Shown here: piece by piece, positions 4,154 through 27,836 of the stretch
Position numbering within the stretch: position 1 is the first letter of the stretch
Layout of the letters: every line of letters begins with the position of its first letter
Virus record (IMG/VR): IMGVR_UViG_3300048918_000169
Coordinates: 1 to 31,273 of that record
Length of the DNA stretch: 31,273 bases
DNA from: a virus
Strand: one strand, 5' to 3'
Position numbers and translations under genes: made by a program
Notes under the pieces: generated by a model
What the model was told of the DNA's origin: nothing
Database searches by the model: none
Seen by the model: only the letters and a program-made list of their open reading frames with translations

Positions 4154-4771
4154 ATGACTTTCTTCGCTACCACTATTCCGCCGCAGGCCGCTTTCGGTTT
4201 CTCCGGCGGTCCCGAGTTCAGTACGAACATCAAGTCGATGGCGTCCGGCCGCGAGAAGCGCAACGGCGACTGGTCGCAATGTCGGCACAAGTACACCGCG
4301 CCGTTCCAGAACATCACGAATGCCAACTACTTGCTGATCAAGGCGGTGCATCTGGGCATGCGCGGTCGTCTGCATACGTTCTTGTTCCAAGATAAGGCGG
4401 ATTACCAAGCTTCCGCCGAGCAATTCGGTGTTGGCGACGGATCGACGAAAATATTTCAGCTGAGCAAGACATCGAATGCGGGCGGCGGTGCGACCTATAC
4501 GCGCGTCATTACGAAGCCAGACGTTGTAACAGGCATCGTCATTCGCGTTAACGGGACAGTGACCGCCGCTACCGTGGATTCGACGACGGGCCTGGTCACC
4601 TTTTCAGCGGCGCCAGCCAGCGCAGCGGTGCTGACGTGGACCGGTAATTTCTACGTGCACGTGCGCTTTGACAACGATTCGCTGCCTTTCTCGATCGACG
4701 ACAAGTCGGGCTCAACATATATTCAAAACGGCAGTATCGATCTGATCGAAGTCCCCGTGGGAGATGACTGA
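4154..4771 (+). CDS. DUF2460-type distal tail / tail tip protein
   Basis: The 205-residue product matches the DUF2460 pattern: an N-terminal region with FGFSGGPEFST and an RHKYTAPFQNI segment, and a C-terminal stretch FYVHVRFDNDSLPFSI followed by a closing beta strand SIDLIEVP. Proteins of this family sit at the tail tip between tape measure and hub, comparable in role to lambda gpM. Residues 90-168 form a beta-rich module that reappears in the next gene. The ATG lies 1 nt after the tape measure stop; an in-frame extension into the tape measure gene is possible but has no role. The GTG of the next gene follows its TGA directly. Confidence 0.85.
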   Translation: MTFFATTIPPQAAFGFSGGPEFSTNIKSMASGREKRNGDWSQCRHKYTAPFQNITNANYLLIKAVHLGMRGRLHTFLFQDKADYQASAEQFGVGDGSTKIFQLSKTSNAGGGATYTRVITKPDVVTGIVIRVNGTVTAATVDSTTGLVTFSAAPASAAVLTWTGNFYVHVRFDNDSLPFSIDDKSGSTYIQNGSIDLIEVPVGDD

Positions 4772-5923
4772 GTGCGCACTATTCCTTCGCTTTTGGCCGC
4801 GGATCTGGCCAATAACGCCACGACCACGTGTTACCTCCTTAAGGTAACGCCTGTGCGCGAAGGCGTTGCCGTCTTCGGCATCACCACGCTCGATCAAGAT
4901 GTCGTTTATGACGATGGCCTCGGCCCTGTCACGTATAAAACGAAGTCCGGCTATACAGCGTTCGACGTTAGCACCGCTGCCGACATGAGCGTGGACAACA
5001 GTCAAGCACAAGCGCTGGTTGCGACGTACCCCGTGGAAGGCATGACCGTTGCAGGTATCTCCCGCGGCGATTACGACAGCTCGCGCTACATCCAGTACCT
5101 CGTTAATTACGAAGCGCTGGGCCACGGCCATGTGATCATGAATGCGGGCCAGGTTGGCCAGGTAACGCGCATCGACGATCTGACGTGCAACATGGAGATG
5201 CGCTCGTTGACGCAAATCCTGAAACAGAATTCGATCATTGAGCTGACCTCGATCACGTGTCGCGCTCGCTTCGGCGATGTGCGGTGCAAGATGCCTCTGC
5301 GCTGGTACACGTCTTCCGTGGCTGCGGTCGGTACCGAAATCGATCGTGACTTCACGTTGAGCAATTCGCCAGGCTCGTCAGATCCTCCGGGCGGTTCCAC
5401 TGGCCCCGTCACCGGAGTTTTCCTCGGCAACGGCAACGGCGCTTCGCTGAAGTATCAGCTGATCGATACAGCCGGCGAGCCGGTCACCGCTGGCTTCACG
5501 GTGACCCAGATCAAGAGTAACGGTGTCGTGCAACCCGGCACGGCGTACTCGATCAGCGGCACGGGCCTCGTCACCTTCGTCGCGGCTCCGGCCGTCAACG
5601 CGGTGCTGACTTGGAGCGGCACGGTCACCCTGTTCCCGGACGGCTTTTTCTCTCCCGGTGTCGTGCGCTGGCTGACCGGTAACAATGCCGGCAACGAGAA
5701 CGAGATCGAGTCCTACGATGCTACGACTGGCGCCGTTGTCTTGTCGATTCCCACCAATGACGATATCCAAGCCGGCGACACCCTCGAGATCCGCCGCGAT
5801 TGCGATTACTCGAAGGCCATGTGCAAGGACGTCTACAATAACCTGTTGAATATGCGCGCCGAGCCGGAGTTGCCACGTGCTGACGGTGCGGATCTCCAAT
5901 CACCTACGGCACATCCAGCATGA
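4772..5923 (+). CDS. BR0599-type tail tip protein (DUF2163 family)
   Basis: The 383-residue product shows the N-terminal DUF2163 pattern and the C-terminal BR0599 region, with the signature CDYSKAMCKDVYNN near 344-357. It probably plays the role of lambda gpL at the tail tip. Cysteines 163, 172, 344 and 351 are spaced as two CX(6-8)C pairs flanking a beta-rich insert and could bind a metal or Fe-S cluster as reported for lambda gpL; this is inference. Residues about 211-288 are the insert, resembling the module in the preceding protein. The start is GTG directly after the previous TGA. The gene overlaps the NlpC/P60 gene by TGATG. Confidence 0.88.
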   Translation: MRTIPSLLAADLANNATTTCYLLKVTPVREGVAVFGITTLDQDVVYDDGLGPVTYKTKSGYTAFDVSTAADMSVDNSQAQALVATYPVEGMTVAGISRGDYDSSRYIQYLVNYEALGHGHVIMNAGQVGQVTRIDDLTCNMEMRSLTQILKQNSIIELTSITCRARFGDVRCKMPLRWYTSSVAAVGTEIDRDFTLSNSPGSSDPPGGSTGPVTGVFLGNGNGASLKYQLIDTAGEPVTAGFTVTQIKSNGVVQPGTAYSISGTGLVTFVAAPAVNAVLTWSGTVTLFPDGFFSPGVVRWLTGNNAGNENEIESYDATTGAVVLSIPTNDDIQAGDTLEIRRDCDYSKAMCKDVYNNLLNMRAEPELPRADGADLQSPTAHPA

Positions 5924-6348
5924 TGACCGAACAGGAGATCGCAGAATTCGTCGCCGAAGCCAGGCGTTACGTGCAGCTCGCTGTGCGCTTCCGGCATCAA
6001 GGCCGCACTGTGCGCGGCGTGGACTGTGCAGGCCTCGTCTACGTGAGCCTGGTAGCCGCCGGGCATGACCCAATCGACTGCCCGGCCTACGGGCGCGAAC
6101 CGTTTGAACAAGGCTTGCGCGGCTATCTCGTGCGCAACTTCGGTGAGCCGATACCGAAAGATGAAATGCGCCAAGGAGACGTGGTACTAATGCGCTTCAA
6201 AGGGGAGCCGTGCCACGTGGCCATCATTGCCGACTATATCCACGGTGGTCTGTCACTGATCCATTCCTACGCCACCGTTCGCAAATGCGTCGAGCACCGG
6301 ATCGATGCAGAGTGGGACGGCTATATCGTTGAGGTCTTTCGCCCATGA
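5920..6348 (+). CDS. NlpC/P60-type tail-associated peptidase
   Basis: This 142-residue protein is an NlpC/P60 cysteine peptidase, the equivalent of lambda gpK. Such enzymes cut peptidoglycan stem peptides and are built into or help build the tail tip. The catalytic pattern is visible: Cys36 in GVDCAGLV, His99 in PCHVAIIAD and His115 in SLIHSYA. Two ATG codons are adjacent (5920 and 5923). The one at 5920 overlaps the previous stop and either is possible. It overlaps the next gene by ATGA. Length and position between the BR0599-type and hub genes match other siphovirus tail modules. Confidence 0.9.
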   Translation: MMTEQEIAEFVAEARRYVQLAVRFRHQGRTVRGVDCAGLVYVSLVAAGHDPIDCPAYGREPFEQGLRGYLVRNFGEPIPKDEMRQGDVVLMRFKGEPCHVAIIADYIHGGLSLIHSYATVRKCVEHRIDAEWDGYIVEVFRP

Positions 6349-8783
6349 GCGGACAACAAATAGGCAGTACCATCGGCCTGGTTGTCGGCTCCTACTTCGG
6401 CGGCCCGGTCGGCGGTGCAATCGGCAGCGCCATCGGCGGCTACCTCGGCGGCGTCATCGACCCCACGATCGTTAAGGGTCCGAAGATCGGCGACGGCCAG
6501 ACGCAGTCCTCCACGGATGGCCAAGCCATCGCTTGGGTGCAGGGCACCGGCTGCGTCGCCGGCACGATCGTGCAAGTCAGCACGCGTCGCCAGATCCGTC
6601 ACAAGGAAGGCGGCAAAGGTTCCGGTACCGTCCAAGAGACGTTCACTGCGCAGCAGGATTTCGCGATCCTGATCTGCGAGTCATGCGTGTCGCGCGATAG
6701 CGTCATGTCGCAAGTGCTGATGGTCTACCAAGATGGCAAGTTGGTTTACGACGTTCGCCCCGGTTCGGCCATCGCGGCGGACTCCGCGAAATGGGTGGCT
6801 AACGTAGACTTCCTGTTCGGCGGAGAAGACCAGCTCCCGCATCCTACGCTGGAGGCCATCAGCGGGGTCGGCAATACGCCGGCCTACCGCGGATCACTCG
6901 TTGCGGTGTTCAAGAATTTCGACGTGACATCAGTGGGCGATCGCATCCCGCAGTTCCAGTTTGTGGTTGCTTCGGCCGGCTCGCCGCCGATCAGCGTGCT
7001 GTATACGGATAACTTTAAGTACCGGGTTGAGAACACGGCTACCCCCGATTACTCGAGCCCGACCTATGACGATTCGTCTTGGCTAACGGCGCCGGGTGGC
7101 TTCGGCGGTAGCAGCATCATTCCGCAGATCGCCAACACGTACGTTCCTACAGGCTTGCCGGGTCGATCGATATGGTTGCGTAAAGAGCTTCCGGCTGTCG
7201 CGGCGTCTGGTGTGCTCACCGTCCAGACGATCACGGACGACGGCGCGTGGCTATGGGTTGCCGGCACGAATCTCCAGAACGGGTTGATGCTCGGCGGTAC
7301 GGCCACGATTGATCTAGCGACCGTGAGTCCTCCGCTCGTCGTCGTGCTGAAAGCTGTCGATTGCGTTCCCAGCGGCTCACCGACCGGCATCTTCGCCGGC
7401 ATGAACATCAGCAAGCCAGGCGCGGACGTGGGTCAAGTGCCGTTGTCTCTGATCCTATCGCGCATCTCTCTGCGCGGCGGTTTGGCGGCCAGCGATTTCG
7501 ATCTGTCACACGTGCCGGACATCATGGTCGCTGGCTATGTGGTCGCCACGCAATCGAATGCGGCCGATACGATCCTGCCGCTGCTCCAAGCCTATTTCAT
7601 GTTCGGTTCGGAGTATGACGCGCAGCTTCACTACCACGCTTACGGCGATGACTCGACGGTCAATCTGACGATCGACAGCCTGATGGAGCGCGACAATTCC
7701 AACGACGGCCTCGTCACCAGCACGCTGCGCAATCAGGAGACTGAGTTCCCCTCGCGTATTGTCGTCTCCTACTTCGACACTGCGCAGAACTACAAGGTCG
7801 TTAACGTCACCTCGCGCCGCACCGCCTCCACGATCAAGGCGATCGGCGATCAGTCGTTCCAAGTACCCGTGGCCATGGACTCGCAGACGGCTATTCAAGT
7901 CGCCGACAAAGCGATGAAGATCGCCTATGCGTCGCTGCAAGGTACGCTTGAGCTGACCGTCCCCTACGCCGACGATGCAGGCGTTTACCTCTCGCTGCCG
8001 ACCGGTTTTCCGTTGACCTACGGGGGCAAGCGTTACGTGATCGACCAGGCCACGATCAGCCAAGGCACGATCGACTTCAAGCTTCGCTATGACCGACAGA
8101 GTGCGTACACGTCGACCGTGCAGGCTATCCCAGGCAATGCGCCCGCGGTACCGACATCGCCGTACAGCGGTCCGACTTCGATCATGGCGCTTAACCTGCC
8201 TTCGCTGCGGCCGCAGGACAGCTACGGTATTTACATCGCCGCCTCGTCGACGACGGGTTCCCCCAACTGGCGTGGATGCGCCGTCGATATCAGCTACGAC
8301 GCACAAGCCTCGTGGCAACCTGCCGTAAGCGTCACTTACCCCAGCGTGATGGGAACGGTTGCGGTCGCGCAGACGGCGCTCAACGGCAACTTTAAGGTGC
8401 AGGTAAACGGCGATCTGACCAGCGCCACGACCGCGCAGCTCGCCGCCGGGTCGAATGGCTTCGCGGTCATGAACAGCTCTGGCGTATGCGACTTGGGGCA
8501 GTTCAAAAACGCCACCGAGGATCTCGTCACCGCCGGCCTGTATCTGCTCGATACCGTGACGCAAGGCCTGCGCGGCACGACCGGTTCTATCCACACAGTT
8601 GGCCAAGCGTTCACCAATCTCGACGGCGTTTACTTCCTGCCGATCCCCGTGGATTTCAAGGGCAAGACGCTGTATCTGCGCGCCACGGGTTTCGGCGAGG
8701 ACGTATCGGCGGCCACGATCATCAGCTTCGTCTACACTCCCGACACGACCATCATCTATGACGCCGGAACTGTGACGACATGA
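6345..8783 (+). CDS. Tail hub / tip attachment protein with inserted jelly-roll domain
   Basis: The 812-residue protein occupies the position of lambda gpJ. Residues 1-40 are a glycine-zipper hydrophobic segment (GLVVGSYFGGPVGGAIGSAI), frequent at the start of such hub proteins and possibly membrane-active. Residues about 55-210 and 365 onward form the hub proper, including the LILSRISLRGGLAASDFDLS stretch typical of the gpJ-like 'putative phage tail protein' family. Between them, residues about 218-355 look like an inserted galactose-binding-like jelly roll: DDSSWLTAPGGFGG, SIWLRKELP, TITDDGAWLWVAGTNL. Such domains bind carbohydrate, so it may contribute to adsorption. ATGA overlaps join it to both neighbours. 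Confidence 0.85.
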   Translation: MSGQQIGSTIGLVVGSYFGGPVGGAIGSAIGGYLGGVIDPTIVKGPKIGDGQTQSSTDGQAIAWVQGTGCVAGTIVQVSTRRQIRHKEGGKGSGTVQETFTAQQDFAILICESCVSRDSVMSQVLMVYQDGKLVYDVRPGSAIAADSAKWVANVDFLFGGEDQLPHPTLEAISGVGNTPAYRGSLVAVFKNFDVTSVGDRIPQFQFVVASAGSPPISVLYTDNFKYRVENTATPDYSSPTYDDSSWLTAPGGFGGSSIIPQIANTYVPTGLPGRSIWLRKELPAVAASGVLTVQTITDDGAWLWVAGTNLQNGLMLGGTATIDLATVSPPLVVVLKAVDCVPSGSPTGIFAGMNISKPGADVGQVPLSLILSRISLRGGLAASDFDLSHVPDIMVAGYVVATQSNAADTILPLLQAYFMFGSEYDAQLHYHAYGDDSTVNLTIDSLMERDNSNDGLVTSTLRNQETEFPSRIVVSYFDTAQNYKVVNVTSRRTASTIKAIGDQSFQVPVAMDSQTAIQVADKAMKIAYASLQGTLELTVPYADDAGVYLSLPTGFPLTYGGKRYVIDQATISQGTIDFKLRYDRQSAYTSTVQAIPGNAPAVPTSPYSGPTSIMALNLPSLRPQDSYGIYIAASSTTGSPNWRGCAVDISYDAQASWQPAVSVTYPSVMGTVAVAQTALNGNFKVQVNGDLTSATTAQLAAGSNGFAVMNSSGVCDLGQFKNATEDLVTAGLYLLDTVTQGLRGTTGSIHTVGQAFTNLDGVYFLPIPVDFKGKTLYLRATGFGEDVSAATIISFVYTPDTTIIYDAGTVTT

Positions 8784-9802
8784 CCGACACCATCGCCGCC
8801 CGCTTCCTCATTCGCCGCGGTACGAAGGCGGAGCTTGCCGCTATCAACGAAGTGCCGTTGCTGGGTGAGTTTGTCTACGAGACAGATCAGGGTTTGTCGG
8901 ATGGCAGCTACAAAATCAAGATCGGCGATGGCGTCACGCATTACAACAGCCTTCCATACATAGCTATCGGAACCTCAGGGCTGCCGATGACTGCTAAAGG
9001 AGACCTTGTCGGTTACGACGGTACATCGGTTATTCGTATTCCGAATGCAAGCGCCGACAATATGGTGCTGACGTCGAAGGCTAGTTCAACAGGTGGAATG
9101 GATTGGGAGACGCCAAGTGGCGGAGGTGGTGGCGGCAACATCACCGCTGACTCGCATCCCGCAACGGCTTCTGCCGCCGATGATGAGTTTGAGTTCGGCA
9201 CAGGCATGGATACGACCGGAGCGCGACGCTCCGGCGCAACAGCCTGGTCGAACTTCAACACTGTCACTGGCTCATGGACGGTCAATAGGGGGTCACTTTG
9301 CTTCAAGCCATTTATCACGACTGTCGCAAATTTCAACGGTTACACGCAGTCGGTCTCGGGTTCGACGTGGGAATACACTGCCAAGATGGAGGGCGCGAAC
9401 CTCAACGCCAATTGCAACCTCGGTATCTTCGTCGGTACGGCAAGCGGTACGGCCGGAAAGTTCATCATGCTGGGCATGAATCAATCCGTGTCCCTACAGA
9501 AATGGAATAGCGCTACTAGCTTTAACAGCGCGCCATTCACCGGAACCATACCCAACCAGGTCGCTGCTACCGGCGTTGGCACCAATACCATTCCGTTCTA
9601 CTTTCGTATCAAATATGACGGGACGAACCTCATTTTCTCGTTTAGCTTGACTGGCATCGAAGGCAGTTATATCCCGGTGCTCACGGAGACGCCCGCAACT
9701 TTCCTTGGAACACCAGCCATCATTGGAATCGGCGGCCAGCAGTCGGCCACAGTTGCGACGGCGCCGATCCTCATCTGTGATTGGTTCCGAAAGACCGCAT
9801 GA
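8780..9802 (+). CDS. Receptor-binding tail fibre protein
   Basis: The 340-residue protein begins with a short N-terminal module of the major tropism determinant type (RFLIRRGTKAELAAINEVPL, then YETDQGLSDG and IGDGVTHYNSLPY), which attaches fibres to the tail tip. A Gly-rich linker (SGGGGGGN, about 113-120) follows. The C-terminal half is a predicted concanavalin-like lectin fold starting DDEFEFGTGMDTTGARRSGA and ending in DWFRKTA, a common ending of phage fibre domains. It probably recognises surface sugar. The DNA is less GC-biased here than in neighbours, as often seen in exchangeable fibre tips. No diversity-generating variable repeat is seen. The stop abuts the convergent polymerase stop. 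Confidence 0.85.
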   Translation: MTDTIAARFLIRRGTKAELAAINEVPLLGEFVYETDQGLSDGSYKIKIGDGVTHYNSLPYIAIGTSGLPMTAKGDLVGYDGTSVIRIPNASADNMVLTSKASSTGGMDWETPSGGGGGGNITADSHPATASAADDEFEFGTGMDTTGARRSGATAWSNFNTVTGSWTVNRGSLCFKPFITTVANFNGYTQSVSGSTWEYTAKMEGANLNANCNLGIFVGTASGTAGKFIMLGMNQSVSLQKWNSATSFNSAPFTGTIPNQVAATGVGTNTIPFYFRIKYDGTNLIFSFSLTGIEGSYIPVLTETPATFLGTPAIIGIGGQQSATVATAPILICDWFRKTA

Positions 9803-14546: not shown

Positions 14547-15688
14547 GCGAATATCTTCCTCGTTTTGGTGGTGTCGACCGGAACGAGCTTTGCTGATCCG
14601 GGTGGGTATGAAGCGTATTCCACAATGACGGACTCGTCAATCCCTAATTTCTTCGCCTGCGCGGGAGTGAGAACCGCCGGTTCCGTGGACTTGGCCAGAT
14701 CCTTGCCGAGCATCGCGCCGACCGCCAGCACCGTCTCGGCGGGAACGCTCCAGCGGCGATGCGGTCGCGTGTAGTCGATGCCGTAGTCCGCCAGGTGCGC
14801 GCCGGCCTGCAAGCGGTGCAATGCCTGTTGCTCCAAGCCGGTAATGCGCGACTCGAGCATGGCTTGGGCATAGTGCAGCGAGCGCAACTCGCGGGACAGC
14901 GCACGATCGTCTAGATCGACCGGCGTGGCGCGGCCTGACTCGTGGATGGAACGATACGCCGATTTCTGATTCGCCTCGCAGCGTCGACGGCCGACGCAAT
15001 CGCGGCACCATTCGCCGGCACGTCCTTCGCGTTGCGAGCTGAGTGCCCGCGTAGCCGCGCCGGCCAGTTCCGAGATATACGGGTGCAACTTATCGGCGGT
15101 AATCGTCCATGTGCGAATCGGGCCTTCGCTGGTATACGTGCGAGGCTGGACGATGTGCATCGTGATCGTGACGCGATGCCACTCGAGCGGTGGAATGCCT
15201 GATGCGTCGAGCACGCCGATGACGTAGAGCAGGAGTTGCCAGTTTTCGAATACCTCGACGAAGCGATGGCCGAACTTGTAGTCGAACAGGTGCAGGTGCC
15301 AAGGACCGTTGTCTTCGCCAAGCAAAATACGCGCATCGGGTGTCCCGTAGCATTGCTTATGCACACTCGGCACATGCACAAGCTGTTCGACGAGTAGCCA
15401 CATGCGCGAGCGAGCCGGCAGGGTATCGGTGATGTGCTCGGCGTAGGTCATCGACCCTTCGAGCATTTCATCCGTGACCGTCACGCCGTTATTCATCTGC
15501 GTGCCGACTGGAATTAGCTCGCCCGTCGTGAGCAGCTGAGCGGCGTGCGCATGCGCCGCATTGCCTTCCTTGTCCTCGTCGCCGTCGCGCAAGTCCTGCG
15601 TGATCGACGAGAGATGCGGCGCCAGGCCGCAATTGATCCACTCGTGCGCAGAGCTGGGCGCGAGGAATGCGTGATCGTGGTCGCTCAT
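14543..15688 (-). CDS. DUF2800 PD-(D/E)XK nuclease (Cas4/AddB-like)
   Basis: The 381-residue protein starts with HAFLAPSSAHEWINC, the DUF2800 N-terminal signature. It has EGNAAHAHA near 41-49, D118 in YGTPDARIL, DYK at 136-138 and the QLLLY helix after ENW, which together form the PD-(D/E)XK nuclease core. Cys20 and the cluster Cys228, Cys231 and Cys237 are placed like the four ligands of the Fe-S cluster in Cas4, AddB and Dna2. It probably trims DNA ends in recombination-dependent replication, next to SSB and polymerase. ATG at 15688 overlaps the preceding TGA; a 7-residue longer start exists. Confidence 0.88.
   Translation of the reverse strand: MSDHDHAFLAPSSAHEWINCGLAPHLSSITQDLRDGDEDKEGNAAHAHAAQLLTTGELIPVGTQMNNGVTVTDEMLEGSMTYAEHITDTLPARSRMWLLVEQLVHVPSVHKQCYGTPDARILLGEDNGPWHLHLFDYKFGHRFVEVFENWQLLLYVIGVLDASGIPPLEWHRVTITMHIVQPRTYTSEGPIRTWTITADKLHPYISELAGAATRALSSQREGRAGEWCRDCVGRRRCEANQKSAYRSIHESGRATPVDLDDRALSRELRSLHYAQAMLESRITGLEQQALHRLQAGAHLADYGIDYTRPHRRWSVPAETVLAVGAMLGKDLAKSTEPAVLTPAQAKKLGIDESVIVEYASYPPGSAKLVPVDTTKTRKIFA
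14612..14640 (-). promoter_or_regulatory. Promoter with TGACG-N4-CGTCA operator, for the SSB gene
   Basis: On the minus strand TTGACG (14640-14635), a 17-nt spacer and TACGCT (14617-14612) form a plausible but weak sigma-70 promoter. The exact palindrome TGACG-GACT-CGTCA (14626-14639) overlaps the -35 element. It lies inside the end of the nuclease gene, 66 nt before the SSB start. The -10 fits at 3 of 6 positions, so support comes mainly from the shared layout with the other operator copies. Confidence 0.45.
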
Positions 15689-17319: not shown

Positions 17320-17362
17320 TTGACGGGATCGCAGCCTAACCCTAGACTGACGGCCTCGTCAA
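17320..17362. promoter_or_regulatory. Divergent promoters with a shared palindromic operator
   Basis: The 82-nt gap between the two replication operons holds a rightward promoter, TTGACG (17320-17325), 17 nt, TAGACT (17343-17348). A leftward one on the minus strand is TTGACG (17362-17357), 18 nt, TAGGCT. The exact palindrome TGACG-GCCT-CGTCA (17348-17361) overlaps the start of the leftward -35 and the end of the rightward -10, so a bound protein could block both. The leftward -10 is weak. Confidence 0.6.
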
Positions 17363-17377
17363 TAGGGGAATTTCTCC

Positions 17378-19105
17378 GTGCATTTGCGCCCGTACCAGAT
17401 AAAGCTCGAGGAAGAAATCGAAGGTGCTTGGAATAGCGGTCACAAAGTGGCGCTTGCGGTTAGCCCGTGCGGAAGCGGAAAGACAGTTCTATTCAGCAAT
17501 ATCCTCTCACGCGAGCATGGCGCCAGCGCAGCCATCGCGCATCGACGTGAATTGGTCAGTCAAATGAGCGTGACGCTCGCTCGCAATGGCGTTCGCCACC
17601 GCGTGATCGGTAGCAAATCGCTGATCCGCGATATCGTTTCTATCCAAATGCGAAAGATCAAGCGCAACTATGTCGACCCTTCTGCTCGGTGTGGCGTTGT
17701 AGGCATTGACTCACTACTCAATCTCAATCCTTCAGACCCGTGGCTTAGCCAGGTGCGAACGTGGATTGGCGATGAAGGCCATCATTTCCTCAAAGAGAAC
17801 AAATGGGGGCGGGGTATTGAGATGCTCCCCGCTTCGGCACGAGGATTGCTTGTAACGGCCACGGCGTACCGGGCCGATGGTAAGGGCTTAGGCCGCCACA
17901 CGGACGGGCTCGCTGATTGCATCATCATGGGGCCGCACATGCGTGACCTCATTCGCATGGGGTATCTAACGGATTATCGCGTCGTCGCGCCACCTCTGCC
18001 CGATGATCTTGATTTCAGCGATGTGACCATTACCGCCTCGGGGGATCTATCCCCGCAGAAAAATCGCGCGGCCATGCACCGATCGAAAAAAATCGTCGGT
18101 GATATCGTCAAGATGAATCTCCAGTTCGCGCCAAAACTACGCACGGTGGTGTTCGCAGTAGACGTGGAAGCTGCTGTCGAGATCGCGAACGCATTCAAAG
18201 CTGCTGGCCAGAGCGCTGAGGTTGTTAGCGCGGAGACGCCTGACGTATTGCGATTCGACATTATGCAGCGCTTCGAGCGTGGCGAGATCCGCGTGCTGGT
18301 GAACGTCGACCTATTCGGCGAAGGCTTCGATTTGCCAGCGGTTCAATGCGTGCAAATGGCGCGTAAGACGGAATCTAAGCCGCTATTCGATCAGCAATTT
18401 AGCCGTATGATCCGCCTGATGTTGAGCGATATCCTGATTGCGGCTTGGGATACCTACAGCGTCGAACAGCGGTTGCAATTCATCGCCGAGTCGGAGAAAC
18501 CCGTCGGTTTGCTGATCGACCATGTCGGGAACGTTGAACGGCATTTGCCGCCAGATGGCCCACGTGTTCAAACGCTCGATCGTATGGACCGCAAAGCGCG
18601 TTCTACGCCAAGCGACGCGATTCCGCTGAAAAAATGCTTGTACCCCGATTGCTTCGCGGACTATGAGGCTTGGCGAGACGAGTGCCCGTGCTGCCACCGT
18701 AAGCCAGAGATTTTGCCTCACCAAAAACGTACCGTTGAGATGGTCGACGGCAACCTCTTCGAGATCCCCCCCGAGGTGCTGGCGCGTATGCGTGGCGAGG
18801 AAGTCGATGTCACTACGTTCGCCCCAGTTATCCCTGTCGGTGCAACGTTCGCTATGGCGCAAGGCATTAAGAACCGGTTCCTCGAGACGCAGCAAGCGCA
18901 ACGGCGGCTCCGCGAGGTTATCGCGACATGGGCCGGCGGCGAGAAATACTTCGGCAAATCCGACTCAGAGATCCTGAAAACCTTCTATTTCCGGTTCGGG
19001 CTCGACCTGTCCTCGGCCAAGGCGCTAGGCCGTGCCGACGCCCAGGCGCTACAGGAGCGGATCGAGACGAGGATGGGGATTGACGGGATCGTCAGAGCGG
19101 AGTAA
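17378..19105 (+). CDS. SF2 DEAD/DEAH-type helicase with C-terminal zinc knuckle
   Basis: The 575-residue protein is a superfamily 2 helicase: RPYQ at 4-7, Walker A CGSGKT at 31-36, DEGH at 132-135 in place of DEAD/DEAH, TAT at 160-162, and a second RecA domain with VLVNVDLFGEGFDLP. Motif VI reads QQFSRMIR (339-346) where QxxGRxxR is usual, so the glycine is replaced by serine. Cys420, 425, 436, 438 and 439 suggest a zinc knuckle after the core. It probably unwinds replication or recombination intermediates. GTG start with AGGGG upstream; it is the first rightward replication gene and faces the operator at 17348-17361. Confidence 0.92.
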   Translation: MHLRPYQIKLEEEIEGAWNSGHKVALAVSPCGSGKTVLFSNILSREHGASAAIAHRRELVSQMSVTLARNGVRHRVIGSKSLIRDIVSIQMRKIKRNYVDPSARCGVVGIDSLLNLNPSDPWLSQVRTWIGDEGHHFLKENKWGRGIEMLPASARGLLVTATAYRADGKGLGRHTDGLADCIIMGPHMRDLIRMGYLTDYRVVAPPLPDDLDFSDVTITASGDLSPQKNRAAMHRSKKIVGDIVKMNLQFAPKLRTVVFAVDVEAAVEIANAFKAAGQSAEVVSAETPDVLRFDIMQRFERGEIRVLVNVDLFGEGFDLPAVQCVQMARKTESKPLFDQQFSRMIRLMLSDILIAAWDTYSVEQRLQFIAESEKPVGLLIDHVGNVERHLPPDGPRVQTLDRMDRKARSTPSDAIPLKKCLYPDCFADYEAWRDECPCCHRKPEILPHQKRTVEMVDGNLFEIPPEVLARMRGEEVDVTTFAPVIPVGATFAMAQGIKNRFLETQQAQRRLREVIATWAGGEKYFGKSDSEILKTFYFRFGLDLSSAKALGRADAQALQERIETRMGIDGIVRAE

Positions 19106-19108
19106 GGT
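19080..19108 (+). promoter_or_regulatory. Promoter with TGACG-N4-CGTCA operator at helicase end
   Basis: TTGACG (19080-19085), 17 nt, TAAGGT (19103-19108) lies over the last codons and stop of the helicase gene. The exact palindrome TGACG-GGAT-CGTCA is at 19081-19094. The 15-nt stretch GGATTGACGGGATCG also occurs at the rightward promoter at 17318. The -10 fits at 3 of 6 positions. It would drive the small-gene run starting at 19134. Confidence 0.5.
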
Positions 19109-19133
19109 CTGCTCACTTTCGGGAGATTTAAAG

Positions 19134-19595
19134 ATGCGTTGGAAAGTTTGCGACGACTGCGAGACGAATAATCCGCCCACGGCTGAGAACTGCCGTTCGT
19201 GTGATTCTCCGGCGTTATCCCTTGTTGAAATGACGCCGACGATCGAGGAAGGCGCAGTTCCGCTCCGCCAGTTCGACCACGTCGTTTGCAAGGGTTGCGG
19301 TTGTTTTTTCAATCGCGCCGCGGAGTCGACGTGCCCCGAGTGCGATCGTCTCTATGTGCCGGACGCCAGCGAGTTGCTCCCGCCGCGCACCGCCGCCCAG
19401 CTCCAAGCTATCGCCCACGCCGAACGCCTCCGCACGCAGTTCCAGACGCAGGAGCGCATGATCGCCGAGGCGCAGCTGACCACGACCAAGGTTTACCGTC
19501 CGCTGCCCGTGTGGCGGCAGCGCCTCAATACACTCGCCAGGGGAATACGCACATGGGTTACCGAGATCCGCGGGAGGAAGGGCCGGACGCGATAA
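19134..19595 (+). CDS. Double zinc-ribbon protein
   Basis: The 153-residue protein has two clear zinc ribbons: CDDC...CRSC (about 6-25) and CKGC...CPEC (about 47-66). A basic helical C-terminal half follows. Double zinc ribbons usually mediate nucleic-acid or protein contact. GGGAGA lies 7-12 nt before the ATG. The gene follows the helicase by 28 nt with a promoter/operator between and overlaps the next gene by 43 nt. The specific function is unknown. Confidence 0.8.
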   Translation: MRWKVCDDCETNNPPTAENCRSCDSPALSLVEMTPTIEEGAVPLRQFDHVVCKGCGCFFNRAAESTCPECDRLYVPDASELLPPRTAAQLQAIAHAERLRTQFQTQERMIAEAQLTTTKVYRPLPVWRQRLNTLARGIRTWVTEIRGRKGRTR

Positions 19596-19768
19596 CGATC
19601 TGCATCGTGGTCGCATTCATCGTTGCGTTGCTGTGCGTGGGTTGGCAGTTCGAGTCACGCGATCGCTGCATGCAGTTCGGGCAGGATCACAACGTCGAAA
19701 CGCGTTACATCTACGGCGAGTGCCGTGCGTATTTTCCAGATGGCCATATCGAGGTAGCAGAGCAATGA
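19553..19768 (+). CDS. Small single-pass membrane protein
   Basis: The 71-residue product has one strong membrane helix (about 14-31, ITICIVVAFIVALLCVGW) and a C-terminal domain with two cysteines (39 and 57), so the tail could face the periplasm with a disulfide. The ATG lies inside the end of the zinc-ribbon gene, with AGGGGAA upstream, and the stop overlaps the next ATG (ATGA). Unknown function. Confidence 0.7.
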   Translation: MGYRDPREEGPDAITICIVVAFIVALLCVGWQFESRDRCMQFGQDHNVETRYIYGECRAYFPDGHIEVAEQ

Positions 19769-20154
19769 CTGACCCCAACAATCCGCTGAATCTCCTGCTC
19801 ACGCTCGAGACGGCACTCCACAAATCGCACAAAGGCCGCTGGCCGAATAACGTGCGCAACGCGGTGCAGGGTTTGCGCCATGCGCTGGCGGCGCGTTACG
19901 AGACGCCTGCTGGCCCCGTATACGGGTCGATTGACGCGTGCGCTGAGGTGCAACGGGCGCACACGCAAAACTTGCTCGTCATGAAGCCTGTTCTCGACGA
20001 GTCCGGCGAGCGACTTGGCGTTATAACGGCAGTCACCCAAATCGATGGATCGGTCATGTGCTCTATCAAAGCGGATGAAGGCATGGAAAGCCGCGTTGCG
20101 CAGATGGTCCGCGGCATCGAAGGGCCGGTAAGCATCGGCTACCGCAAGGCGTGA
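19765..20154 (+). CDS. Unknown 129-residue phage protein
   Basis: The protein begins MTDPNNPLNLLLTLETALHK, has a helical first half and a beta-rich second half (GVITAVTQIDGSVMCSIK). No family is recognised and there is no membrane segment. It overlaps both neighbours by 4 nt (ATGA and GTGA), so it belongs to the translationally coupled run 19134-22012. Confidence 0.75.
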   Translation: MTDPNNPLNLLLTLETALHKSHKGRWPNNVRNAVQGLRHALAARYETPAGPVYGSIDACAEVQRAHTQNLLVMKPVLDESGERLGVITAVTQIDGSVMCSIKADEGMESRVAQMVRGIEGPVSIGYRKA

Positions 20155-20360
20155 AATACCTGCCGCACCAAGCGGGCTATTGCCCGTGCAAACGTAAGAA
20201 CTGCACGCGTCGGGTTCGTCCACGCTTGCAACGAGGCCGGATACGCTGCGCCAATACCTGCGAGTGCTCCGGCTACAAATTCCCGCATCGTCGCGGTAGC
20301 GGCTGGTGCGACTATGGTTCTTGGACCGCCGAACAATTACGAGAGAGGATGGGGCAATGA
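20151..20360 (+). CDS. Small basic Cys-rich protein
   Basis: The 69-residue protein carries paired cysteines (CPCKRKNC near 11-18; CANTCECSGYKF near 33-44; C53) in a very basic background with many Arg residues. It probably binds zinc and nucleic acid. The GTG start overlaps the previous stop (GTGA) and its TGA overlaps the next ATG. No family assigned. Confidence 0.7.
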   Translation: MKYLPHQAGYCPCKRKNCTRRVRPRLQRGRIRCANTCECSGYKFPHRRGSGWCDYGSWTAEQLRERMGQ

Positions 20361-20683
20361 GTTGGACACTTCACGACATGATCCGCGCTAAGCAGCTCGC
20401 CAACGAGATGAACGAGCTGGAACAAAAGCGCGTCGCACACTTTTCGGATATGCGCAAGCCGCTGGTCGTTTGCCTGGACGAGATCGAGCGAGCCATGCGC
20501 GGTACCGGCGAGCTGGATCAGAATGCGCAGCAGGCGATGTTCGATGTCTGCGAGGCGCTTAAACCGTACGCCTGCAATTTTCGCCCGGTAGCGCCGCGCC
20601 CTGTGCCCGCAATCCCCGAACCGTACCCGCTGGATGAACCCAGTGCTGAATGCGAACTCGTTACACAGGAGCCGCAGTCATGA
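20357..20683 (+). CDS. Unknown 108-residue protein, MSWT start
   Basis: The first 60 residues are helical (MSWTLHDMIRAKQLANEMNE...), with a Pro-rich end (VAPRPVPAIPEPYPLDEP). It is not recognised. Its first 13 bases (ATGAGTTGGACAC) are identical to those of the next gene, suggesting a local duplication of the start. ATGA overlaps occur at both ends. Confidence 0.7.
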   Translation: MSWTLHDMIRAKQLANEMNELEQKRVAHFSDMRKPLVVCLDEIERAMRGTGELDQNAQQAMFDVCEALKPYACNFRPVAPRPVPAIPEPYPLDEPSAECELVTQEPQS

Positions 20684-21183
20684 GTTGGACACCGCATAAG
20701 GAAGCCGAGTTTCAGGAGGTAAGGCTGTTGCAGCACAACCTCGACAAAGAGCGCGAGGACTACATTACGCGAGTCGTGACGCCGATGCGCGTCATCTGCA
20801 ACTGCTTGAGTGAACGCGATTTGCTCAATGAGTTGGCGAAGCATGCCGGCACGTTGCGCGATCTGCTCGCGCCGTTCGACGCGCGGCAGAAGCCCGAATG
20901 CGAAACGGTAGCCGTGAGCTATGAAAATTTCAAAGAGGTTCCGTTGACTCACGGCGGCAGTGCGTTCGTCTATCGAACGGATTACGACAAGGTGCTCGCG
21001 CAACTCGCCGCCATTGCCCAGGCCGTCAAGCCGCTGCGCGATTGGTATTTCACCGGGCAGTTCGCAGATCGACCAGACTTGGGGGTTCTTGGTTGCTATG
21101 GGCACGTTGTCACGATCGGCGATCTCGCAAAGCTGATCGACGCATGCCCGCGCCCCGGCTCGATCGTGGACACGCAAGCATGA
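20680..21183 (+). CDS. Unknown 167-residue protein, MSWT start
   Basis: The protein starts MSWTPHKEAEFQEVRLLQHN, has a coiled-coil-like first half and a mixed second half (YDKVLAQLAAIAQAVKPLRD, then GCYGHVVTIGDLAKLIDACP). No family is recognised. Its ATG and stop overlap the adjacent genes by 4 nt. The start matches that of the preceding gene, but the rest shows no clear similarity. Confidence 0.72.
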   Translation: MSWTPHKEAEFQEVRLLQHNLDKEREDYITRVVTPMRVICNCLSERDLLNELAKHAGTLRDLLAPFDARQKPECETVAVSYENFKEVPLTHGGSAFVYRTDYDKVLAQLAAIAQAVKPLRDWYFTGQFADRPDLGVLGCYGHVVTIGDLAKLIDACPRPGSIVDTQA

Positions 21184-21671
21184 GCACTGAGCTGCAAGCA
21201 TGGGCGCATCGCAATGGCGTGAGCCTGACCGCATTCCTCGAGCTGGAGGAAATTCTCGACGCGGCGCCGGAGACGCTCGGGCTCAGCGGAGCGCCCGGTA
21301 CCGAAGCCCGCGTGGTCAGTGAGCTGCGCCTCGAGGCCAGCCAGCTCGGCATGCGGCTATGGCGCAACAACTCCGGCGCGTTCTACGACGACAAGGGCAA
21401 CTTTGTCCGCTTCGGCCTGGGCAACGACTCGAAGCAGTTCAACACCGTGTGCAAGTCCAGCGATCTGATCGGCATTAGCAACAAGCTGATTACGCCGGCA
21501 GACGTGGGCAAGCCGCGCGGGCAACTCGTCGCACGTGAGGCGAAGAAACCTGGCTGGAAATACACCGGCACGCCGCGCGAAGTAGGGCAGCTCAATTTCA
21601 TCAACATCATCAACCGATTCGGCGGCGACGCGGCATTCGCGACCGGGCCGGGCACATTCGGAGAGAAATAA
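21180..21671 (+). CDS. VRR-NUC nuclease
   Basis: The 163-residue protein has the VRR-NUC arrangement: Glu48 in SELRLEASQLGMRLWRNNSGAF, Asp95 in KSSDLIGI, the E-x-K pair Glu120/Lys122 in AREAKKPGWK, and Gln137 in VGQLNFINIINRFGG. Such stand-alone phage VRR-NUC enzymes cut branched DNA such as Holliday junctions and flaps (FAN1/T7-like group). It probably resolves replication intermediates before packaging. The protein carries an extra N-terminal helix region (about 1-40). ATGA and TAATG overlaps link it to both neighbours. Confidence 0.9.
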   Translation: MSTELQAWAHRNGVSLTAFLELEEILDAAPETLGLSGAPGTEARVVSELRLEASQLGMRLWRNNSGAFYDDKGNFVRFGLGNDSKQFNTVCKSSDLIGISNKLITPADVGKPRGQLVAREAKKPGWKYTGTPREVGQLNFINIINRFGGDAAFATGPGTFGEK

Positions 21672-22012
21672 TGGATATGCGCATTCAATCGTTGAGTGAG
21701 TTTGCTCGCTTCAAGGAAGGCCAGCGTTTCGATAACGCAACGGTGATCGTGCTGAAAAATTGCACACTTATCAAAATGGAGAACGGCGCTATTTTCACGC
21801 TGCACCATTCGACGCACCTCTATGACGGCTGGAACATGAACGACTTTATCCGTCGCGCGTGGTGCCGGCTGTCCGGGGTGAAATTCGTTGACTTGAAGAA
21901 AGCGATCGCCGCTCACAAGGCGGAGCAGGAGAGCGAACGAGTTAAGGGAAAAGTCGAGGATCTTCGCCGCATGGCCGGCAAACTCGGCTATGACCTCCGC
22001 AAGCGCCATTGA
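21671..22012 (+). CDS. Unknown 113-residue protein
   Basis: The first 75 residues look like a small beta fold (ATVIVLKNCTLIKMENGAIF, then HHSTHLYDGWN), followed by a charged helix (KAEQESERVKGKVEDLRRMA). No family is recognised. It is the last gene of the coupled run; the next gene has its own promoter, whose -35 overlaps this gene's end. Confidence 0.7.
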   Translation: MDMRIQSLSEFARFKEGQRFDNATVIVLKNCTLIKMENGAIFTLHHSTHLYDGWNMNDFIRRAWCRLSGVKFVDLKKAIAAHKAEQESERVKGKVEDLRRMAGKLGYDLRKRH

Positions 22013-22037
22013 CGACCTCGACAGTCTGACCTATCCT
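22009..22037 (+). promoter_or_regulatory. Promoter with degenerate operator, for the TetR-type gene
   Basis: TTGACG (22009-22014), exactly 17 nt, TATCCT (22032-22037; 4 of 6) is a good sigma-70 promoter 33 nt before the regulator ATG. TGACG-ACCT-CGACA (22010-22023) is a one-mismatch copy of the palindrome found at the other promoters. A weaker site at the regulator's own gene would fit autoregulation. Confidence 0.6.
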
Positions 22038-22069
22038 CGCGCCATCACACCCCGGAACACAGCGACACC

Positions 22070-22372
22070 ATGACCACGAATCTCAAACCCGAACAGCGCA
22101 AGTCCGATATCCTCGTGGCGTCGCTGAAGATTGCCGAGCGTGACGGCTATGACCGCATCAGCCGCAAGCAGATCGCCGAAGCCGCTGGCGTAAGCGAAGC
22201 GCTCGTGTCGCACCACTTCGGCACGATGCCGCACTTCCGCCGCGAGCTGATGCGCTTCGCCGTCAAGCGCCAGAACCCGCGCATCGTCTTGCAGGGTTTG
22301 CTCGCCAAGGATGCCCAGGCCCGCAAGGCGCCGGAGGATCTCCAGGATCTCGCACGTAAGCTCATCGCCTAA
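22070..22372 (+). CDS. Minimal TetR-type DNA-binding regulator
   Basis: The 100-residue protein matches the TetR N-terminal domain: ILVASLKIAERDGYDRISRK, then QIAEAAGVSEALVSHHFGTM, with the helix-turn-helix at about 33-52 and the helix 4 start at 55-64. The ligand-binding and dimerisation domain of about 120 residues normal for TetR proteins is missing; a short basic/helical tail of about 35 residues replaces it. It has its own promoter and sits between the coupled run and the PrimPol. It is the best candidate in the window to bind the TGACG-N4-CGTCA sites, but this is inference. Confidence 0.82.
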   Translation: MTTNLKPEQRKSDILVASLKIAERDGYDRISRKQIAEAAGVSEALVSHHFGTMPHFRRELMRFAVKRQNPRIVLQGLLAKDAQARKAPEDLQDLARKLIA

Positions 22373-22392
22373 ACAGCGCCTCCGGGGGAATC

Positions 22393-24780
22393 ATGCAAGC
22401 GCTGCCTGCCGCTCTGGCGCCAATGGGTGCCTACAAACAGTTTCTCAATTACAAGCTGGTGCCGTCCGTCAAACAGCCGGGAAAGATGGACAAGTTTCCG
22501 GTGAACCCGTCGACGGGCGAGGTGTGCAATGCGCATGACCGCAATGCTTGGGCGTCGTTCGACGGTGCGGCGCAGGCCGGTTTGCTGCGTGGCCACGGTG
22601 TTGCCTTCGTCTTCGCTGACACCGACCCCTTCTGGTTTCTCGACATCGATGGTGCGTACGATGGAAACGATTGGAACGCTACCGCCAAGACTCTTTGCGC
22701 TGAGTTTGCAGGCTGCGCTATCGAAGTCTCCCAGTCTGGCCGCGGCCTACACATCTTTGGCTCGGGAGCTGTCCCCGAGCATGGCACGCGCAATCGGGCG
22801 CTCCATCTTGAGTTCTACCATCGCCTCCGGTTCGTCGCCCTTACCGGCACGCACGCCACTGGCAACGCCGCGCACACTCCGCACAACCTGACGCCGCTCG
22901 TCAATCGTTACTTCCCTCCGGGCAGCGACCAATCGACCGATGTGGGCGCGGATTGGTGGAGCATGGAGCCGGTACCGGAATGGAACGGCCCGCAGGACGA
23001 CGCCACGCTGCTCCAGCGGGCGTTGCGGAGCAAGAGCGCTGCCTCGGTATTCGGCGGCGACCGGGCGAGCTTTGCGGACCTCTGGGATGGCGACGAGGCG
23101 ATCTTGGCCAAGGCCTTCCCTGACGACAAACACCCCTACAATGCCTCGAGCGCGGACCAGGCGCTTGCGCAGCACCTAGCCTTCTGGACGGGCAAGAATG
23201 CCGAGCGCATTAAGACGCTGATGCTCGAGTCGGGCCTCGTGCGCGACAAGTGGGATCGGCGCGGCGATGACTACTTGGCGCGCACCATCCGCAAGGCCTG
23301 CGCATGGCAGAAAGACGTGCTGATCGACCCGCCACCGAGCGCCAGCCCGTTCGAGCAAGCGCTGAGCGATGTGCCGTTCAGCACCGAAGCGCTGCGGATC
23401 TCCGAGAAAACGCTGCTACAGCCCGACGAACAGGTGCAATTCTTCAAAGGCTGCGTCTACGTCGCCGACGAACACAAGATCATGGTACCGAACGGTGCGT
23501 TGGTCGACTCGTCGCGCTTCAATGCGTTGTACGGCGGCCGATCGTTCGTGATGGATGGCGGCAATACCCGCGTGGTCAAAAAGGCGTTCGAGGCCTTCAC
23601 CGAATCGCAGGTGTATCGCTTCCCGCGTGCTGACTCCACGTGCTTCCGTCCGCTCGAGACGCCCGGCGAGATCATTCGCGAGGCGGGCTTTACGCGCGTC
23701 AACGTGTACCGCCCGTGCGAGGTGAAGCGCGCCAAGGGCGACCCCGGCCGTTTCCTGCACCACCTGGCCAAGTTGATCCCCGACGAGCGCGATCGACAAA
23801 TCCTGCTCGGTTATATGGCGTGCGTGGTGCAATATCAGGGCCATAAGTTGCAGTGGGCGCCGTTACTCCAGTCGACCACGGGTACCGGCAAGGGCCTGAT
23901 CGGTATCGCGATCAAAAAGGCGATTGGCCGTCCGTTGTGCTACTCGCCGCGCGCTGAGGAAATCGGCAACAACTTCAACTTCTGGCTCACTGGCCACACG
24001 TTCTATTGCGTCGACGAGATCTACATCCCCGACAAGCGCACCGACTTGCTCGAGGTGCTCAAGCCGATGATTACCGGCGACGAGGAAGGGCAGGAAGTCA
24101 CGAAGAAAGGCGTTGACAGTGAGATGCGCGACACGTGCGGCAACTTCTGGTTCAACACCAATCACCAGAACGCACTCAAAAAGGATAAGCATGATCGTCG
24201 CATCGCTGAGTTCTTTATGGCTCAACAAGATCCTGATGACCTTATGCGTGATGGGCTCGACGCTGAGTACATCCTCGATCTTGTCGAATGGCTCAAAGGT
24301 TCGGGACGATACGCTGGCCATGCCTCGGGTTACAGCATCGTGGCCGAATACCTGTGGACGGTACCGATCGCGCGTGAGTTCGATCCGCGCAAAGACGTTC
24401 GCGCACCGAAAACCTCCAGCACGCAACGCGCGCTAGAAGTAGGTAAGGGACGCGTCGAACAGGAAGTGGCGGAACTGATCGCGATGGGCAACAGCGGCTT
24501 CCGCGGCGGATGGGTATCGTCGGCGGCCTTCCGCAATCTGCTGCGCGAGATGAAGATCAGCATTCCGCTGACGCGCCACCAAGAGATCCTGAAGTCGCTG
24601 GGATATATACCTCACCCTGCGCTGCCCGATGGCCGTGTGAACAATCCTGTGCTGCCTGACGGCACGCGTGTGCGGCTCTACGTCGACGTGCGTCAGGCGG
24701 ATCTGCTGACGATCAATGAACCGTCGCGCGTGGCGGAAGCATATAGCGCGGCGCAAGCGTTCTTACCTGGGAGTGTGTGA
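22393..24780 (+). CDS. PrimPol-helicase (AEP primase plus DUF5906/SF3-like ATPase)
   Basis: The 795-residue protein fuses a primase and a helicase. The N-terminal domain has archaeo-eukaryotic primase motifs: DID at 84-86 (FLDIDGAYDG), SQSGRGLH at 113-120 and FVALTG near 147-152, similar to the NrS-1-type phage primase-polymerase. The C-terminal part has Walker A TTGTGKG (495-501), Walker B CVDE (539-542), the NFWFNTN sensor (584-590) and the RR pair near 602, typical of DUF5906/virulence-E/SF3-like phage helicases. It would prime and unwind at the origin. GGGGGAATC precedes the ATG; the TGA overlaps the next ATG. Confidence 0.9.
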   Translation: MQALPAALAPMGAYKQFLNYKLVPSVKQPGKMDKFPVNPSTGEVCNAHDRNAWASFDGAAQAGLLRGHGVAFVFADTDPFWFLDIDGAYDGNDWNATAKTLCAEFAGCAIEVSQSGRGLHIFGSGAVPEHGTRNRALHLEFYHRLRFVALTGTHATGNAAHTPHNLTPLVNRYFPPGSDQSTDVGADWWSMEPVPEWNGPQDDATLLQRALRSKSAASVFGGDRASFADLWDGDEAILAKAFPDDKHPYNASSADQALAQHLAFWTGKNAERIKTLMLESGLVRDKWDRRGDDYLARTIRKACAWQKDVLIDPPPSASPFEQALSDVPFSTEALRISEKTLLQPDEQVQFFKGCVYVADEHKIMVPNGALVDSSRFNALYGGRSFVMDGGNTRVVKKAFEAFTESQVYRFPRADSTCFRPLETPGEIIREAGFTRVNVYRPCEVKRAKGDPGRFLHHLAKLIPDERDRQILLGYMACVVQYQGHKLQWAPLLQSTTGTGKGLIGIAIKKAIGRPLCYSPRAEEIGNNFNFWLTGHTFYCVDEIYIPDKRTDLLEVLKPMITGDEEGQEVTKKGVDSEMRDTCGNFWFNTNHQNALKKDKHDRRIAEFFMAQQDPDDLMRDGLDAEYILDLVEWLKGSGRYAGHASGYSIVAEYLWTVPIAREFDPRKDVRAPKTSSTQRALEVGKGRVEQEVAELIAMGNSGFRGGWVSSAAFRNLLREMKISIPLTRHQEILKSLGYIPHPALPDGRVNNPVLPDGTRVRLYVDVRQADLLTINEPSRVAEAYSAAQAFLPGSV

Positions 24781-25004
24781 TGGCAGACCTCAAGCAGTGC
24801 GACACGTGCGGCGTCATATCGCCTAACAACAAAGGTGAGTACATCGCCAATCATTGGACGACAATGCGCGTCGTCTACGCTGAAGGGTTGCGCAGTAGCC
24901 GAACGACGGACTTCCTCGTGTGCTGTGACTGCATAGCGCGTGGCGTCAAAGTTTCGGATACTTCCGGCTACCCGCCGCACAAAGCGATTTTGGTCGCCGA
25001 TTGA
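24780..25004 (+). CDS. Small zinc-ribbon protein
   Basis: The 74-residue product contains CDTC (8-11) and CCDC (about 48-51) separated by a polar stretch, a zinc-ribbon pattern. The ATG overlaps the PrimPol stop (TGATG); a GTG at 24777 would add one residue. The end of the frame runs through the first iteron-like repeat. Unknown function; last gene of the rightward unit. Confidence 0.7.
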   Translation: MADLKQCDTCGVISPNNKGEYIANHWTTMRVVYAEGLRSSRTTDFLVCCDCIARGVKVSDTSGYPPHKAILVAD

Positions 25005-25112
25005 AACCTCGTTGCACAAAGCGATTTTGGTTTTTGCCCAAAAATTGAGGGCTCGACGCACATTTGGATTTTGGTCCGCGCGGGAAATCGCGTTGCACAA
25101 AACCGAATTGGT
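24977..25112 (+). repeat. Four 18-bp iteron-like direct repeats
   Basis: Repeats of the form GCACAAAGCGATTTTGGT lie at 24977-24994 and 25014-25031 (identical), 25058-25075 (14 of 18) and 25095-25112 (13 of 18). Start-to-start distances are 37, 44 and 37 nt. They lie directly after the PrimPol-helicase gene, with an AT-rich patch (TTTTTGCCCAAAAATT) between copies two and three. This resembles an iteron-type replication origin. The spacers are too short and unequal for CRISPR. Confidence 0.65.
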
Positions 25113-25121
25113 GTCGAGCCC
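25049..25121. repeat. Inverted repeat framing the last two iteron-like copies
   Basis: GGGCTCGAC (25049-25057) immediately precedes repeat three and its exact complement GTCGAGCCC (25113-25121) immediately follows repeat four, making a symmetric block of 73 nt. It could fold into a long imperfect hairpin. T-rich tracts on either side (TTTCTC after it; TCAATTTTT on the minus strand) would also suit a bidirectional terminator between convergent operons. From 25122 to 25252 no gene is seen, only short CCTGGCC/GGCCA repeats. Confidence 0.55.
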
Positions 25122-25252
25122 TTTCTCGTGGTGCAACACGTCCTGGCCGTCCCTGGCCACGTCCATTCTGTTGCGTAGCGGCATGCCTGCTAGGGCTGTG
25201 AAACGCTGTAATGCAACACCCATCCGCCGCGAAGTTCGACGGTAGTTTTGCC

Positions 25253-25417: not shown

Positions 25418-25430
25418 ACTAGGCTCCCTT

Positions 25431-25482
25431 GTTGCGTGCCAGTCGCACGGCAAAGCGCACCGCTAGGATGCGCTTCACGCTG
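25431..25482 (-). terminator. Double-hairpin terminator element, copy 1
   Basis: On the minus strand, AAGCGCA/TGCGCTT (7-bp stem, 25475-25453) ends in a T run (TTT), then a second hairpin CGTGC-GACTG-GCACG (25449-25435) follows. It lies just after a gene stop and just before the next start. The first 24 bases of the plus strand (25431 on) are identical to those of the copy at 25960. Confidence 0.65.
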
Positions 25483-25944: not shown

Positions 25945-25959
25945 CGGCGCGGCTCCGGT

Positions 25960-26010
25960 GTTGCGTGCCAGTCGCACGGCAAAACGCCCCGTTAGGGGCG
26001 CTTCACGCTG
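25960..26010 (-). terminator. Double-hairpin terminator element, copy 2
   Basis: On the minus strand AAGCGCCCC-TAAC-GGGGCGTTTT (26003-25981) is a strong rho-independent terminator (6 GC pairs plus A-T and G-T extension). The hairpin CGTGC-GACTG-GCACG (25978-25964) follows. It sits 6 nt after the stop of the 122-residue gene. Relative to copy 1, both arms of the first stem changed together so that pairing is kept. Confidence 0.8.
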
Positions 26011-27807: not shown

Positions 27808-27836
27808 ATTGTCGGTTAGATTGACGATTGCGTCAA
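27808..27836 (-). promoter_or_regulatory. Promoter with perfect 16-bp palindromic operator
   Basis: On the minus strand TTGACG (27836-27831), 17 nt, GACAAT (27813-27808; 4 of 6) forms a promoter for the leftward genes from 27782. The operator TTGACG-ATTG-CGTCAA (27821-27836) is the most symmetric of the family and covers the -35. Confidence 0.65.

Follow-up and report, generated by a model that had tools for sequence, protein, structure and literature searches.

What does a protein of 100 residues, with a TetR helix-turn-helix and no usual ligand domain, control in a phage, and through which DNA sites? The question bears on gene timing, which is poorly known in many tailed phages without a phage RNA polymerase or sigma factor. 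The gene lies in the virus record IMGVR_UViG_3300048918_000169, which was analysed over its whole 31,273 nucleotides (the window), and its product, termed mini-TetR here, was regarded in the original prediction as a candidate master regulator acting on dispersed palindromes. We propose, with a probability of roughly 0.7, that mini-TetR is a Cro-like repressor of the early and replication operons and of itself, acting through an operator fused to the -35 box of the promoters.

Overall features of mini-TetR

The gene is situated inside the replication region of the window (17378-24780), with the following features.

22070..22372, + strand: mini-TetR regulator gene, 100-residue reading frame with ATG start, matching TetR_N and phrog_8723
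Residues about 32-50: helix-turn-helix, with the recognition helix SEALVSHHF at 42-50
Residues 53-66, 70-78 and 89-97: C-terminal helices
17378..19105, + strand: helicase gene, first of the operator-flanked replication operon (phrog_16, 1e-67)
22393..24780, + strand: primase/helicase gene directly 3' of mini-TetR (phrog_1829, 2.7e-114)

The reading frame was confirmed, and its product matches Pfam TetR_N (PF00440) with an E-value of 1.4e-8 and 34.8 bits, against a curated cut-off of 24. It also matches TetR chains in the PDB by sequence, and phrog_8723 (8.5e-25), labelled in PHROG as of unknown function. A sister phage (IMGVR 3300048918_000255) encodes an identical protein in flanking DNA that is only 81-97% identical. 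About 45 residues follow the helix-turn-helix, predicted to form three or four short helices, and the classical C-terminal ligand-binding and dimerisation domain of about 120-150 residues is absent, as judged from the structure model and a Foldseek comparison against the PDB. The lack of the usual ligand domain is therefore as originally predicted.

The AlphaFold2 model, built on an alignment of 19 family members, is compact and all helical, with a pLDDT of 91.6 and helices at residues 7-25, 32-39, 43-50, 53-66, 70-78, 82-85 and 89-97. Among PDB structures it most resembles TetR-family regulators, for example LuxR, HapR and EilR (TMq 0.62-0.68); the similarity to the larger TetR proteins is partial (TMq about 0.5-0.68), and no PDB match reached E<=0.001. 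Three predicted viral proteins, two of them equal in size to mini-TetR, match with TMq of 0.82-0.92. The last 45 residues had been described as a short tail, a description that has to be corrected: they are predicted to be ordered helices and are conserved family-wide with the consensus ...IAQGL...D..A..AP..L...A...L, the Q-G-L, D, A, A-P and L positions being kept both in this alignment and in one of 11 members. Alignment and model thus agree on a small, conserved helical unit at the C-terminus. We also considered a truncated, decaying TetR protein, and rejected this idea because the family as a whole keeps both the short form and the C-terminus.

A tblastn search with mini-TetR found matches in 98 of 50,697 phage records, all below 60% identity, including Jedunavirus (Klebsiella JD001), Yokohamavirus (Edwardsiella MSW-3) and phages of Escherichia, Pantoea, Shewanella, Vibrio and Acinetobacter. 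A genome scan with the single protein returned only ordinary host TetR regulators, mostly actinobacterial. In the window and in most annotated relatives the usual neighbours are helicase, nuclease and primase genes, and the primase adjoins the mini-TetR gene in JD001, MSW-3 and CWW26 as in the window. In Scuro, SppYZU01 and two IMG/VR records (G023 and G049), the protein is 150-170 residues long and carries an extra degenerate TetR-type helix-turn-helix fused at the N-terminus, possibly forming a tandem (duplicated) regulator.

Scuro (L044), 21424-21924, - strand: mini-TetR with fused helix-turn-helix
SppYZU01 (L291), 38065-38565: mini-TetR with fused helix-turn-helix

The window record is probably incomplete, and no terminase or capsid gene was found among the window proteins scanned. 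In 631-9799, the gene of a 1173-residue tape measure protein comes first, then those of tail assembly and tail proteins. Several relatives with the same replication and mini-TetR module have annotated contractile-tail genes (sheath and baseplate), which suggests modular exchange.

Operator sites in the window

Four exact TGACGNNNNCGTCA palindromes (TGACG-N4-CGTCA) are found in the window, at 14626, 17348, 19081 and 27822, where 0.10 are expected; none of 100 shuffled sequences reached four. Extended by their flanking bases, and together with a degenerate copy before the mini-TetR gene, they make up five candidate operators.

14625..14640, - strand: operator reading TTGACGagtcCGTCAt, serving as -35, 17 bp to the -10 TACGCT; 94 nt before the Gp2.5-like ssDNA-binding/annealing gene (14546-13614)
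17347..17362, both strands: perfect palindrome CTGACGgcctCGTCAA, common to divergent promoters
19080..19095, + strand: operator TTGACGggatCGTCAg, serving as -35, 17 bp to TAAGGT; 54 nt before gene 19134-19595 (153 residues)
22009..22024, + strand: degenerate operator TTGACGacctCGACAg in the mini-TetR/primase promoter, -35 TTGACG, 17 bp to the -10 TATCCT (22032-22037)
27821..27836, - strand: perfect operator TTGACGcaatCGTCAA, serving as -35, 17 bp to a weak -10 GACAAT; 54 nt before a 50-residue reading frame at 27782 (- strand), in a cluster of small - strand genes

Four of these operators supply, with their left half, the -35 box of a sigma70-like promoter whose spacer measures 17 bp; the fifth (27821) does so too, with a weaker -10. 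At all five, a reading frame starts 54-94 nt from the -35; for mini-TetR, the ATG lies 61 nt from the start of the -35. The operator at 17347 is the -35 of the - strand promoter of gene 17295-16402, 17 bp from its -10, and also covers the start region of the + strand helicase promoter (-35 at 17320, -10 TAGACT). The sister phage retains the operators at 17347 and 27821 without change amid diverged surroundings, the former within a stretch of about 70 identical bases.

A copy in the gene's own promoter had been taken to fit autoregulation. Such a copy is present at 22009; it carries two mismatches, and its counterpart in the sister phage, TTGACGgcctCGATAg, is weaker still in the right half, so that autoregulation in the window phage rests mainly on the relatives described below. 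In addition, a de novo scan of the window for all 5-base half-words and gaps was tried as proof of the operator and was not decisive, because CpG-rich palindromes outscored the operator word in 15 of 100 shuffles. The weight of the operator case is in the comparative tests.

Other repeats were seen in the window. Three imperfect head-to-tail (G)TTGCACAAAGCGATTTTGGT-like copies, spaced 37 and 44 bp, follow the primase region at 24973-25112, beside an inverted repeat at 25048-25122; they could be iterons or an origin. A 46-base direct repeat (GGCTCC..GTTGCGTGCCAGTCGCACGGCAAA), 89% identical, lies between small - strand genes at 25422-25467 and 25951-25996.

Co-occurrence of the operator and mini-TetR

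Allowing at most one mismatch, TTGAC-N6-GTCAA is strongly over-represented at spacer 6 and at no other spacer in the window, Scuro, JD001 and MSW-3, and likewise in many IMG/VR relatives, AAM22 and CWW26. The near-matches at spacer 6 number 15 in JD001, 13 in MSW-3, 15 in AAM22 and 23 in the IMG/VR record G019, against means of about 1-3 at other spacers. We then scanned 2.9 million IMG/VR viral contigs for the operator joined to a promoter (TTGACGNNNNCGTCAA-N7-TANNNT), blind to the protein, and obtained at least 120 stretches. Among the matches listed, 26 of the 50 records tested encode the mini-TetR family. A control scan with one more central base gave 49 stretches, and the family was found in 0 of 29 records (N5-spacer control; Fisher p 2.5e-7). 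All records from the scan had been selected for one operator site, and the 50 tested were mostly longer contigs, which slightly favours gene finding; the control contigs were up to 277 kb long. The comparison thus supports the predicted action of mini-TetR on dispersed palindromes.

The family is present in 16 of 17 records with at least three exact sites, if G024, which is divergent but matches TetR_N, is included. G046, the one record without it, is a 23.5-kb fragment, and its sites too are embedded in promoters. A TetR_N search of the operator-positive records without a family match found G024 only, and none of the control records gave a match over the cut-off. In 16 of 27 operator-positive records, taking G011 with its later start codon, the mini-TetR gene is preceded at 35-70 bp by an operator with no more than one mismatch, and AAM22 and CWW26 are two further cases. 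By sequence statistics, therefore, a palindromic operator is found in candidate target promoters and in the regulator's own promoter, as in the TetR family.

Relatives with a different operator

Homologues in phages lacking the motif had been named beforehand as evidence against the regulator, and such homologues exist. The operator is absent from eight of the 14 relatives found through the protein and examined (AeroV_348, PD0307, PY6, Vibrio 367.14, 1.009.O, CKB-S1, SFCi1 and R9Y1). Their recognition helices carry PPA, APS, PQA, TAL, GQT or NSS, whereas those of operator-positive phages mostly read G/A/S-L/T/S-V-S/N/T. Position 44 is small (A, G or S) in all operator-positive helices and another residue in most negatives, a link to the operator that is suggestive. 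The correlation comprises only two to four independent changes and is confounded by ancestry, the sign test carrying no information.

Pseudoalteromonas phage PY6 (L047) has five copies of TAGCGC-N4-GCGCTA between the -35 and -10 of its promoters, which apparently represent a different operator in a phage bearing mini-TetR.

PY6, about 7108, 8015, 12383, 19993 and 28189: copies of TAGCGC-N4-GCGCTA

In AeroV_348 the promoters carry a GGGCTA-N4-TAGCCC palindrome, in SFCi1 a GTTACGTAAC palindrome, and CKB-S1 and 1.009.O share TAGATTAG words there. The different helix residues and the PY6 palindrome make diverged specificity a plausible reading of the operator-negative relatives, rather than a refutation. 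These homologues are the main caveat nevertheless, because they do lack the motif and shared ancestry confounds the statistics.

The same small number of changes leaves room for another binder, either a second phage protein or a host factor, with mini-TetR linked to the palindromes through shared phage ancestry. The proposed binding of mini-TetR comes from sequence comparison, and many small genes of these phages have no assigned function. We consider this explanation unlikely. A host factor common to all is improbable, because the hosts include Klebsiella, Pantoea, Edwardsiella, Shewanella and Acinetobacter. In addition, most records that bear the operator have a copy immediately in front of the mini-TetR gene, and eight perfect sites occur even in G024, whose family member is very divergent (profile E 5e-5); one of the eight precedes its mini-TetR gene by 68 bp. 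Palindromes of this kind also suit dimers of the TetR fold, and from the operator symmetry we infer that mini-TetR dimerises.

Operator-promoter fusion and proposed mechanism

A -10 box lies 16-18 bp away at 125 of 198 operator sites, with a sharp peak at 17, compared with 42 of 207 pseudo-sites of wrong spacing and 20% of random positions. In operator-positive phages, 129 of 195 TTGAC promoters (66%) carry the second half-site, against 2 of 55 (4%) in seven operator-negative relatives with other recognition helices. Most perfect sites of JD001 lie 40-70 bp before a gene start.

Based on these comparisons, we propose a regulatory cycle for mini-TetR. A dimer would recognise TTGAC-N6-GTCAA, in the window phage TTGACG-N4-CGTCAA. 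In a strong sigma70-type promoter, the left half-site doubles as the -35 hexamer, with the right half-site falling in the 17-bp spacer; bound mini-TetR would therefore keep the host RNA polymerase away from the promoters that drive replication genes, small accessory genes and its own operon. Immediately after injection, the host polymerase would fire the operator promoters. As mini-TetR accumulates, it would shut them, its own included, forming a negative-feedback timer of the Cro type, while the virion genes, operator-free in the annotated relatives, would stay on.

Mini-TetR might instead bind these sites and activate, or switch on a later class of promoters. LuxR and HapR of the TetR family both activate and repress, and among the PDB entries matching the mini-TetR model one is titled 'repression' (7amn) and one 'activation' (7amt). 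This seems quite improbable to us: the operator lies across the -35 and the spacer of promoters close to the sigma70 consensus, which makes steric repression the simplest function, such promoters should need no help, and mini-TetR's own promoter is laid out likewise. A role of the sites in replication or recombination is possible, as is activation. Finally, the half-site equals the -35 consensus TTGAC(A/G) and some sites serve divergent genes (e.g. 17347), yet face-to-face -35 elements of overlapping bidirectional promoters are a very improbable source of the symmetry and were rejected, because a -10 occurs in both orientations at only 36 of the 198 sites, many sites have only one annotated downstream gene, spacer 6 is strictly preferred, and the TTGAC promoters of motif-negative relatives almost never have the second half-site.

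Genes behind the operators

The reach of the proposed repressor was judged by eye in the annotated relatives JD001, MSW-3, CWW26 and AAM22. There, replication genes, the mini-TetR/primase operon and small hypothetical genes follow the operators, many of the small ones on the strand opposite to the virion genes around them. In these four genomes, a good operator-promoter was not seen to be followed directly by a gene for terminase, portal, capsid or sheath, except that a few head- and tail-gene starts in MSW-3 are close to a divergent site (e.g. 4287, 7989 and 19858). An adhesin gene is downstream of AAM22 site 12952. No gene is annotated behind AAM22 site 24874. An operator TTGACa(c/g)tcacGTCAA is conserved between virion genes near this position in AAM22 (L292) and at 90-105 in JD001 (L046), with no annotated gene clearly downstream in either; a small RNA or an unannotated gene is perhaps present.

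We lean slightly towards a widespread system, in which a miniature ligand-less TetR and a 16-bp operator/-35 module would provide genome-wide shut-off of early genes. Accessory genes that insert among virion genes would join the regulon by bringing their own operator-promoter cassette, and specificity would have diverged with the recognition helix (TTGAC-N6-GTCAA versus TAGCGC-N4-GCGCTA in PY6). For phages of Klebsiella, Escherichia, Pantoea, Edwardsiella, Shewanella and Acinetobacter, the sequence itself would reveal a circuit of one protein and one operator, and regulons could be drawn directly from the genomes. It would give a proposed function to a family so far called 'unknown' or merely named TetR, and would provide very small natural proteins, predicted to be TetR-type repressors, with candidate operators.

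Comparison with known systems

The annotated 'TetR family transcriptional regulator' genes of JD001, MSW-3 and their relatives belong to the same family (phrog_8723), and their loci have an order similar to the window, helicase, nuclease, mini-TetR and primase. The window protein shares with this family the helix-turn-helix, the C-terminal motif and this placement. No operator, regulon or mechanism was found described for these genes in the non-subscription literature searched, so the gene switch is called hitherto undescribed only provisionally.

Mini-TetR has the same helix-turn-helix and the same predicted fold of the first four helices as TetR-family regulators such as LuxR, HapR and EilR. 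Those regulators have about 190-220 residues, whereas mini-TetR has about 100 and lacks the classical ligand-binding and dimerisation domain. The operator consensus of RutR, another TetR protein, also has TTGAC...GTCAA outer halves. The candidate mini-TetR operator is likewise a palindrome of about 16 bp, RutR binding an 'approximately 16 bp palindromic sequence' (PMC10891134).

Lambda Cro-type repressors are likewise small phage proteins directed at early promoters including their own, the role we propose for mini-TetR. Unlike Cro, mini-TetR has a TetR fold and many dispersed operators fused to -35 boxes, and no lysogeny module was recognised among the window proteins scanned. The repressor of Cluster A mycobacteriophages (L5 type) has many binding sites, the stoperators, scattered over the genome (PMC9283540), as proposed here for mini-TetR. 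Those stoperators are asymmetric, are occupied by an immunity repressor in monomeric form and halt elongation, whereas the candidate mini-TetR sites are symmetric and lie inside promoters.
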